DNA of 43,716 nucleotides from Chloroflexota bacterium (GTDB lineage Bacteria; Chloroflexota; Dormibacteria; Dormibacterales; Dormibacteraceae): contig VBGP01000033.1 in assembly GCA_005880795.1 (NCBI GenBank), positions 1 through 43,716 on the forward strand, given 5' to 3'. The notes under the pieces are model-generated. The model saw nothing but the letters and a program-made list of their open reading frames with translations. It did not search any database and was not told the origin of the DNA. A program made the translations under genes and the position numbers. Position 1 is the first letter of the stretch. The number at the start of each line of letters is the position of its first letter. Positions 10,878-12,832 of the stretch are shown piece by piece.

Positions 10878-10903
10878 CAAGGTGTCAGTTAGGGTGTCAA
10901 ATG
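10878..10903. repeat. Paired TGTCA direct repeats, possible integrase arm sites
   Basis: Two TGTCA motifs (in GGTGTCAG and GGTGTCAA) about 13 bases apart lie 70-90 bases before the first partial tRNA copy. The same pairing and distance recurs at 12648-12670 before the intact tRNA end. The rest of 10773-10974 holds no gene that I can support. Confidence 0.45.
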
Positions 10904-10974
10904 CATCGGACGTCACGCATCGCGTCAGGAATCCCAACATCTGGGGGTCGATCTGAACTCGAATCCGCACGTCA

Positions 10975-11019
10975 TGGTGCTCGCGCAGGGAGTCGAACCC
11001 TGAACCTTGGGATTAAGAG
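10975..11019 (-). repeat. Attachment-site copy 1: 45-bp tRNA-Lys 3' end
   Basis: This 45-bp stretch matches the 3' part of the tRNA-Lys gene (12757-12801), from the anticodon loop to CCA, with one mismatch, in the same orientation. Identity stops abruptly after ATTAAGAG, inside the anticodon loop. No 5' half of a tRNA follows, so it is not a functional tRNA; it is the footprint expected when an element integrates into the 3' end of a tRNA gene. Confidence 0.75.
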
Positions 11020-11146
11020 GAGATTGACATTCGTTGCCAGGAAGCGTCAGGACGTGCCTCACTATCGGCAGTCTGACGCGTTTGTGCCACAGGGCATCCT
11101 GACGTGTCACAGACAGCCCTGAGTAAGCTGTCAAATAAGCTGTCAG
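11020..11146. repeat. Attachment-arm repeat unit A
   Basis: About 127 bp directly following att copy 1 and clearly related to unit B (11591-11727): both open GAGATTGAC, share TTGCCAGGAAGCGTCAGGACGT, carry GTCTGACGCGTT and a GTGTCACAGAC segment, and end with two TGTCA motifs spaced alike. The repeated TGTCA/CGTCA words resemble integrase arm-binding sites. Confidence 0.6.
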
Positions 11147-11323
11147 AGTGCGGAACAGCGGGCAACCATTTGCGGCGGGTATCCCGACCGGCTCCATTTG
11201 GTGGGCGGGCAGCATGTCGGACCTTGTTCGCCTCCCCGTAGATGTTGGCCCAGCTCGCACTGGAGATATCAGCGAGGTGCCCAACCCGTCAAACCTGCGG
11301 GGCGAGATAGGCGGACATCTCTG

Positions 11324-11452
11324 ATGTGGCCCATGGGCAATCTTCTCGCTGGACCTCTCGCTGGTCTGTCGGGAGGGCGGCCACGCCTTGGATGTGGCCT
11401 ACTCCTCATCGCGGTCGCCTTCGTGATCGCGATCTTCATCGCGACGAGATAA
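11324..11452 (+). CDS. Possible small membrane protein between att copies
   Basis: A 42-residue frame from ATG 11324 (ATG 11333 also possible), Gly/Leu-rich, with one hydrophobic segment near the C-terminus (GLLLIAVAFVIAIFIATR). No ribosome site or clear promoter is visible. It sits between att copies 1 and 2, so it could be a leftover cargo gene. The composition supports a membrane peptide, but a chance frame is possible. Nothing else gene-like is seen in 11147-11528. Confidence 0.3.
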   Translation: MWPMGNLLAGPLAGLSGGRPRLGCGLLLIAVAFVIAIFIATR

Positions 11453-11528
11453 GACGACGTCGCATAGTCCACACGAGGCGGTCGATTCATAACGAAATGC
11501 GATGCCCGTGGGGATCGCTGCGGATTTG

Positions 11529-11590
11529 TTGGTGCTCGTATAGACCTTCGGTCCCGCAGGGAGTCGAACCCTGAGCCTTTGGATTAAGAG
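11529..11590 (-). repeat. Attachment-site copy 2: interrupted tRNA-Lys 3' end
   Basis: TTGGTGCTCG (11529-11538) is the end of the tRNA acceptor region; then 16 unrelated bases, containing a small GACC-TTC-GGTC hairpin, interrupt; then 36 bp (11555-11590) resume the match through the anticodon loop with three mismatches. Like copy 1 it stops at ATTAAGAG and is followed by the same arm unit. It is a decayed or recombined copy. Confidence 0.65.
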
Positions 11591-11727
11591 GAGATTGACC
11601 TTCCTTGCCAGGAAGCGTCAGGACGTCAGGGCGTGCCTCACGTATTTGGCGGTCTGACGCGTTCGTGCCACGCACCGTCCAGGCGTGTCACAGACTGCCC
11701 CGGGTAAGCTGTCAAATCAGCTGTCAG
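11591..11727. repeat. Attachment-arm repeat unit B
   Basis: The counterpart of unit A at 11020-11146, about ten bases longer through an insertion after CAGGACGT. It begins GAGATTGAC and ends with the paired TGTCA motifs. Order and spacing relative to the tRNA fragment are conserved. Confidence 0.6.
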
Positions 11728-11811
11728 CTCGGGACTTCGACTGGGGCCGCACCAGCAGTTCGGGTTGGGTAGGCGCTCACACTTGGTCGCCGAACTAATA
11801 ATGTCCATCCA

Positions 11812-12435
11812 GTGAGCGGGTTTTCCGACGATGGCCGGTGGTGGTGGGACGGTACGACGTGGCTGGCGACGCCTCAGGTCGTGCTCCCTCAGCTTCCGCC
11901 GACCGAGTTCGAGCAATCAGGGCAACTGAACAAAATGCGCGATCGCAGGAGCAAAGGTCGGTGGCTTTTTTGGACGTTCGGGCTCGGATTCGGACTGCCT
12001 GCCTTCCTCCAGTCCCCTTCTCCCGATATCCTGCCATATGCTCGCGACTATCGATTGTGGACGCTCGAACAGCTGGCACTCGCGACGACCTACCTGCTTG
12101 GCCCAGATGAGCCGATGCTGGCCGGCGAAACATCTATTTACGACGTCGGTGATTCCTGGACACGGGGCCTGGCGGTGGCGGTCACGGCGGCACGTGTGGT
12201 GGTCTTTCGTATCGATTCCGTCGATGGGCAACCGCGCTGGATCGTACTGGTGGGTCGCCCGACTGACGTGAACATAGAGGCACGTTCGGCAGTGTTTGGG
12301 TTCCTATGGCCGGCCCTCAAAGTCAGCGGTTGGAATGGACAGTGGACGATCCGGGGTCAGCCGGGCATGTTCAAGCCGGAGCCGGTGCTTGACGCATGGC
12401 GGCAAGCCGTCAAGGGCACGGGTCGCACCGCATGA
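11812..12435 (+). CDS. Unknown protein with N-terminal WWDG motif, cargo of the tRNA-Lys region
   Basis: A 207-residue protein from GTG 11812. It opens with DGRWWWDGTTW, the W-W-D-G-x-x-W pattern found at the start of many actinobacterial membrane-associated proteins (DUF2510-like). A basic stretch (RDRRSKGR) is followed by a hydrophobic segment (WLFWTFGLGFGLPAFL, about 50-66). The rest is a soluble alpha/beta region with strands such as VAVTAARVVVFRI and PRWIVLVGRP, somewhat like a PH-type barrel, but I cannot assign it. It lies alone between att copy 2 and the intact tRNA-Lys, so it is likely carried by an integrated element. Confidence 0.6.
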   Translation: MSGFSDDGRWWWDGTTWLATPQVVLPQLPPTEFEQSGQLNKMRDRRSKGRWLFWTFGLGFGLPAFLQSPSPDILPYARDYRLWTLEQLALATTYLLGPDEPMLAGETSIYDVGDSWTRGLAVAVTAARVVVFRIDSVDGQPRWIVLVGRPTDVNIEARSAVFGFLWPALKVSGWNGQWTIRGQPGMFKPEPVLDAWRQAVKGTGRTA

Positions 12436-12756
12436 CCACGCTGTCGGTAAGGGAGGGGTTGATCGCCTGACTGGGTGAATCGCTTCTGACCCCGCGACGT
12501 TATGCGGGTCTACTGCACAACAGTTCGCCAGTCACGAGACATGGGATTATTGATTCGCTACGACCTGGTTCAATTGGTCACCGGGAACTCTAGTTGAGTC
12601 AAGCAAACCCCTTTTGACGACAGTTCTGGGGCTTGGTTCCCGATCTGTAAGCTGTCAAATACGCTGTCAACAGGCGACGGGGCAGATGCTGCCCACCACC
12701 AGTTGACACGTCAGGAACACCAGGGGCACGCCCTGACGCTCTGGGACACAACATAT
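12436..12756. other. Non-coding arm region before tRNA-Lys
   Basis: No supported gene. It contains TGTAAGCTGTCAAATACGC and a second GCTGTCA (12648-12670), the same paired TGTCA arm motif that ends units A and B, and then CGTCAGG and CCCTGACGC words up to the tRNA 3' end. Best read as the remaining arm of an attachment site. Confidence 0.5.
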
Positions 12757-12832
12757 TGGTGCTCGCGCAGGGAATCGAACCCTGAACCTTGGGATTAAGA
12801 GTCCCCTGCTCTGCCAGTTGAGCTACGCGAGC
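12757..12832 (-). tRNA. tRNA-Lys (anticodon CTT), CCA encoded
   Basis: Read on the minus strand it has a 7-bp acceptor stem GCTCGCG/CGCGAGC, D arm GCTC...GAGC, anticodon loop CTCTTAA (anticodon CTT), T arm CAGGG-TTCGATT-CCCTG, discriminator A and an encoded CCA. Base pair 27-43 is G-A, the only irregularity. It is intact and is the target of the integrations recorded at 10975 and 11529. Confidence 0.95.

Follow-up and report, generated by a model that had tools for sequence, protein, structure and literature searches.

Integrase-less cassettes with conserved two-armed attachment sites at tRNA-Lys(CTT) in the family Dormibacteraceae

At the tRNA-Lys(CTT) gene of a Chloroflexota bacterium (assembly GCA_005880795.1, hereafter G000), we identified an array of small gene cassettes, each built from a partial copy of the tRNA gene, long repeat-bearing arms and cargo, and lacking an integrase gene. 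At least 15 of 42 genomes of the GTDB family carry one to eight core copies at the same tRNA-Lys(CTT). These are probably non-autonomous cassettes accreted at the tRNA and moved by integrases acting in trans. The window, i.e., the whole stretch of DNA analysed, is 43,716 nt long (contig VBGP01000033.1); coordinates without a prefix refer to it, while those in other genomes are preceded by genome and contig (as in G022:C7) or by a sequence label (as in L042).

ARAGORN calls a single tRNA in the window, an intact tRNA-Lys(CTT), whose 3′ half (12757-12801) constitutes the attachment core, and the two partial 3′-end copies that the original prediction placed downstream of it were recovered as core repeats. 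The features of the locus are the following:

3890..5680, + strand: RecQ helicase, chromosomal left anchor (near tRNA-Lys in several relatives)
10877..10974, + strand: P′ arm from a more distal cassette, now lost or not recognised (similarity and position)
10975..11019, + strand: attachment core copy 1, 45 bp, one mismatch with the tRNA 3′ half, as predicted
11020..11154, + strand: class A P arm of cassette 1 (nhmmer E 2e-34)
11155..11554, unstranded: remaining cargo of cassette 1, apparently cut by a deletion (comparison with G017)
11555..11590, + strand: attachment core copy 2, starting truncated at CGCAGGG (comparison with G017)
11591..11730, + strand: class A P arm of cassette 2 (nhmmer E 8e-42)
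11812..12435, + strand: 207-aa cargo gene of cassette 2 (related genes in cassettes of G008 and G017)
12623..12756, + strand: P′ arm of cassette 2, adjoining the tRNA (76-84% identical to G022 and G039 P′ arms; position)
12757..12832, - strand: intact tRNA-Lys(CTT), the attachment gene (ARAGORN)

The cores ending at 11019 and 11590 are direct copies, located downstream of the tRNA-Lys 3′ end. They do stop, as had been noted, at the same anticodon-loop position (...GGATTAAGAG) and continue into GAGATTGAC and a related arm of ~130 bp; between the two copies, a 75-bp block of core and arm is 93% identical and the following 80 bp are 84% identical. The repeats are not due to chance, since at least 15 genomes contain the same arms according to the arm profiles (lowest E value, 1e-49). 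The P arm of cassette 1 ends in the arm-site pair GCTGTCAAATAAGCTGTCA (11127-11145), that of cassette 2 in GCTGTCAAATCAGCTGTCA (11708-11726), and the P′ arm of cassette 2 carries the pair GCTGTCAAATACGCTGTCA (12651-12669) to the left of the tRNA; this pair begins 105 bp from the core. Position 10878 is not, as first proposed, the limit of the array: positions 10877-10974 constitute another P′ arm (83% identical to L042:13168-13310 and 76% to L056) with a variant pair, GGTGTCAGTTAGGGTGTCA, beginning near 10880, 93 bp from the distal core. Such an arm, carrying a repeat pair of its own and placed to the left of the distal core, implies that a further cassette once ended there.

On the left side of the array, between it and the conserved RecQ/dienelactone hydrolase anchor, lies an accessory block (6438-10772) that encodes two proteins without family, an SPFH/Band 7 protein and an NrtR-type Nudix regulator; it has no match in the relatives’ loci compared and is possibly an older cassette. 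The PrgI-like and VirB4/TraG-like genes that start immediately 5′ of the tRNA (12923-15270 and beyond) belong to a conserved chromosomal T4SS-like cluster, syntenic across the family.

The second partial copy was originally described as 46 bp interrupted by 16 bases. Window positions 11263-11558 are 95.6% identical to G017:C14:7073-7368, and the upstream sequence in G017 that matches the window (..TTGGTGCTCGTATAGACCTTCGGTACCGCA..) continues there as unique cargo, unrelated to the core. Copy 2 in the window is, therefore, best interpreted as a truncated core abutting unrelated cargo, and the 16 bp as cargo at a deletion junction, where cargo meets the core truncated at CGCAGGG with a CCGCA microhomology. 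A deletion of ~3.4 kb from a G017-like arrangement would explain this junction, albeit a partly similar interrupted core at ~3660 in G017:C14 means that it could have another origin. The window array thus appears partly decayed, with cassette 1 and the second core cut by the deletion.

The family consists of uncultured soil Chloroflexi/Dormibacterota MAGs, which we searched using the array, the core and the arm-repeat pair as queries. Carriers include the MAGs Chloroflexi bacterium CF_93, CF_47, CF_138 and CF_173 and Ca. Dormiibacterota palsa_842; in G022, seven core copies are spread over ~24 kb of one contig, with one more on a second contig. An arm profile search recovered 44 P arms in 15 genomes, which fall into three homologous classes: class A arms begin with the GAGATTGAC already mentioned, class B arms with TCTnTCGACA or ACTCCCGACA, and class C arms with GCTGCGGGCA. 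About 29 cassettes are closed, measuring 0.57-10.5 kb (median 2.1 kb) and often holding one or two genes, in MAGs that are fragmented and whose contigs break at repeats. Judged by eye, only about six of eight cassettes combine P and P′ arms of matching type, which is not significant. A class B arm query against 110 genomes of the class gave no match outside this family. With variable cassettes added at one tRNA, tRNA-fragment repeats and differences between related genomes, the locus corresponds to an additive flexible genomic island as defined in PMC10872708 and PMC7771536.

An exact search of GTDB contigs and viral contigs with ATTAAGAGGAGATTGAC yielded relevant matches in MAGs of the same lineage (L030, L031, L033, L035, L037 and L038). 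Those in Lactococcus, Marinobacter, Fischerella and others, and in the viral contig L040, lack the rest of the core and were attributed to chance; matches of the arm-repeat pattern in viral contigs were judged to be unrelated sequences. Several AGGCTGTCAAATAAGCTGTC repeats in the viral contigs L151 and L152, where no tRNA core was seen, are taken as coincidence. Isolated arm-end sequences (CCCGGTCAAGGTGTCAAATAAGGTG and similar) with no core nearby occur at L167:8167-8202 (G026:C29) and L143:4988-5031 (G026:C13).

The P arms contain 10-bp repeats of the TCAGGGAG type and end in a 12-bp pair of direct repeats. Of 36 non-tRNA cores, 19 are followed by strict repeat pairs, versus a background of 2-3%, while the P′ pairs in the arrays are found at -93 or at -103 to -105 from the core. 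The arm profile also matches G022:C20; there, the core of another tRNA precedes TCAGGGAG repeats, then the 12-bp pair TGTTGTCAAAACTGTTGTCAAAAC and a gene for a tyrosine integrase of 378 aa (PF00589 and Phage_int_SAM_3). Relatives of this integrase directly adjoin tRNA-Lys(CTT) in four genomes (G020, G032, G068 and G080). In G032, the direct-repeat pair TGGCTACAAAATGGCTACAG, near-identical in G020, lies between the integrase start region and the core, and the far attachment site has the pair TTGGCTACAGTAATGGCTACAG; in G068 and G080, the pair GCTGTCAAAACTGCTGTCAAC is situated between integrase and core. Similar repeat pairs occur near some other integrases. Given the fixed distances of the pairs and the same arrangement flanking core and integrase in autonomous relatives, we read the arms as integrase arm sites, and the TGTCA words pointed out at the outset as arm-type sites within them. 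Two hallmarks of a tyrosine-integrase attachment site in a tRNA gene are seen here: the 3′ half of the tRNA is directly repeated and the complete gene stands at one end, and arm-type repeats lie at set distances on either side of the core, just like those of the integrase-bearing relatives.

In the sampled genomes, we came across no integrase bearing arms of class A, B or C, so the cognate helper is missing from the sample. A 345-aa integrase adjoining tRNA-Sec in G035 lacks neighbouring arms of this type and was not considered a helper candidate. When viral contigs were searched for integrases, only relatives at 23-40% or none were returned. In G022:C20 (L140), the integrase sits at a core from a tRNA with CAT anticodon, near PemK/MazF-like, SocA/Panacea-like and HEAT-repeat genes.

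The statement that no integrase is left in the window array can be extended to the arrays of the relatives: none of the PF00589 matches in 15 genomes falls within an array, and when 191 kb of array DNA was searched by tblastn with five integrases of the family, no remnant emerged (best E value, 0.47). G000 has a single PF00589 match, a protein of 331 aa encoded on contig C9, and no integrase of the putative helper family. We did not retain the C9 protein as a candidate for acting on the array, because similar proteins of 330-350 aa occur about once per genome in many relatives. The own integrase gene of an autonomous ICE, IME or prophage is thus absent from the cassettes, which, like CIMEs, keep att sites while recombination and transfer genes are absent. 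Transfer genes were absent among the roughly 45 cargo proteins scanned, as were replication or packaging genes. No adjacent integrase-bearing element or integrase remnant was seen; since MAGs break at repeats, an integrase might reside on an unassembled contig.

The cargo consists mostly of ordinary accessory genes, and many of its proteins are without family. Enzymes include nitronate monooxygenase, cupins, a CAAX protease, APH and ANT-like enzymes and a nitrilase-type hydrolase; other products are DnaJ, GrpB, MFS and ABC transporters, sigma factors, histidine kinases and YCF48/BNR proteins. One transposase (rve core, IS481-like HTH) occurs in the cargo of G015. PADLOC, run on ten cargo proteins, gave only weak HTH-type matches, on one protein. 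The 207-aa product of the cassette 2 gene belongs to no Pfam or PADLOC family; its relatives of 205-221 aa are encoded in G008 and G017 cassettes, in a DNA block that is 90-91% identical.

Individual cassettes recur in different genomes at an identity that contrasts with that of the chromosome beside them: 5′ of the tRNA, the segment that starts with PrgI and the VirB4-like ATPase mostly shows ~70-75% identity from one genome to another, and genomes whose cassettes match at 90-98% have a flanking chromosome of ~72% identity. Within cassettes, identity is 94.6% over 1956 bp, core to core, between G022 and G026, 98.1% over 676 bp between G008 and G017, and 93.5% over 968 bp between G017 and G035. 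G000 matches G017 at 89.7% over 910 bp, in addition to the 296 bp at 95.6% described above, and G008 at 91.2% over 684 bp; the cassettes of G000 are absent from the genomes nearest to it, G007 and G016 (85% at the locus). A block with the DnaJ gene recurs at 87-96% in G002, G007, G016, G026 and G035, with a shorter match in G003. Array content does not track chromosome similarity, and this comparison with relatives supports the predicted repeated site-specific integration and mobility at tRNA-Lys. The pattern is one of horizontal spread, between genera, of units already without integrase. Near-identical cassettes in distantly related genomes, therefore, look like hitch-hikers of an enzyme encoded elsewhere. 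Some cargo blocks, those of the 207-aa gene and of an APH gene, end off the arms, implying that other recombination also reshuffles cargo.

Each unit comprises the 45-bp tRNA core, a P arm of ~130-160 bp, one to a few cargo genes and a P′ arm of ~100-130 bp. In the mechanism that we propose, a related autonomous element would provide a lambda-type tyrosine integrase in trans; on binding to the arm repeats, this enzyme would excise or insert the unit as a circle via the tRNA core, and repeated insertion at the tRNA would build a head-to-tail stack of units. The tRNA would stay intact because the core restores its 3′ half. The circular intermediate, the catalysis in trans, the identity of the helper and activity at the present day are what we infer; neither excised circles nor junction-spanning reads were observed.

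The original prediction left a choice between a stack of decayed elements and satellites mobilised in trans. Under the former, the cassettes would be CIMEs, i.e., former ICE, IME or prophage units that lost the integrase and other genes by deletion and whose relics were stacked by successive integrations. Tandem accretion with decay to CIMEs is documented (PMC5704250), the window array does show deletions (the truncated core) and G000 has no integrase of the putative helper family; we nevertheless consider this origin unlikely, as about 29 closed cassettes, in 191 kb, contain no trace of such a gene, the integrase-flanking arms are retained at both ends with fixed spacing, the cargo is often just one or two accessory genes instead of pared-down ICE or phage modules, and integrase-less cassettes occur at 90-98% identity in different genera. 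Mobilisation in trans is favoured because one cassette after another, in successive species, has retained the arms at its two ends, and because an array DNA devoid of integrase remnants is combined with inter-genus spread; the window copy itself is damaged.

RecA-type homologous recombination between the 45-bp cores and the ~130-bp arms could also spread or shuffle units, by unequal crossing over and uptake of array DNA; a site-specific recombinase would then no longer be required. The repeats offer 200-350 bp of homology, G022 contains array-internal duplicates (pairs at 86-90%), the window has its microhomology deletion and some shared blocks end off the arms. We find it improbable as the main route: it leaves unexplained the full arm sites at fixed spacing, the coexistence of three arm classes and the match to integrase-associated arms of relatives, and the inter-genus repeats are often merely 75-85% identical. 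A stable, non-mobile chromosomal feature, for which the conservation in the family of the tRNA, the RecQ gene and the T4SS-like neighbours might speak, is scarcely credible, as array content varies in every genome compared, independently of chromosome similarity, and the same array unchanged in distant relatives was not encountered.

The cassettes have counterparts of several kinds. The additive flexible genomic island fGI-2 of Ca. Methylopumilus contains repeats of the tRNA-Lys(ctt) end (PMC10872708), and fGI1 of Ca. Actinomarinales consists of tRNA-targeted cassettes with tRNA-fragment repeats and cross-genus transfer (PMC7771536). As far as these accounts of streamlined freshwater and marine bacteria go, they share with our arrays the partial tRNA repeats, the small variable cassettes at a tRNA hot spot and the accessory genes, and, respectively, the same tRNA-Lys(ctt) and the transfer between genera; they describe tRNA repeats but not conserved integrase arm sites, and cassette movement is unsettled there. 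The present cassettes differ by defined P and P′ arms, in three classes, tied to a tyrosine integrase family. CIMEs, decayed elements seen moving in tandem with an ICE, likewise, in the account cited, lack recombination genes, have att sites on either side and are stacked at the 3′ end of a single tRNA (PMC5704250), but here neither integrase-bearing neighbour nor integrase remnant was seen, and integrase-less units recur across many species.

CALINs, described as integron cassette arrays without integrase (PMC11389934), and MITEs are similar in logic only, as non-autonomous units in need of a recombinase in trans, CALINs being cassette arrays as well. The double-stranded lambda-type sites, the tRNA core and the long arms would set our cassettes apart from CALINs. 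Tycheposons and phage satellites (PICI, P4-like) are also tRNA-associated and cargo-bearing, and satellites are helper-dependent too; the tycheposon example, as described, carries its own recombinase, whereas none was found in the present cassettes. Additive flexible islands and CIME accretion are kinds already known. Relative to the open-licence PMC literature, the novelty lies in a conserved two-armed att architecture that ties cassettes lacking an integrase to one particular integrase family, and in the finding of this architecture at two tRNAs throughout a bacterial family.

The retained arm sites, together with relatives’ integrases in the same arrangement at the same tRNA, provide a concrete and testable mechanism, integration and excision in trans, and the arm-site signature can be used to find such cassettes elsewhere. 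Tentatively, the arrays may even represent a lineage-specific analogue of integrons, in which a pool of integrase-less cassettes with double-stranded lambda-type att sites, entering at the Lys-CTT and Sec tRNAs, would be shuffled between genera by integrases in trans. If movement in trans is confirmed, uncultured soil bacteria would possess a cassette-exchange system parallel to integrons, carrying accessory genes such as nitronate monooxygenase-like, aminoglycoside-modifying-enzyme-like, chaperone and regulatory ones.

The second tRNA is tRNA-Sec(TCA), at which a similar arrangement, with pairs such as TTGGCTGTCAACTTGGCTGTCA, is found in several genomes. In G000 itself, partial copies of tRNA-Sec(TCA) occur on contig C199 (L217, 2912-5227), where TGTCA pairs lie on either side and the cargo amounts to ~2.2 kb. 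A solitary tRNA-Sec core in G022 (L219:4446, corresponding to G022:C7:82446), far from the other tRNA-Sec copies of that contig (462-485 kb), has arms on both sides and resembles a complete attP.
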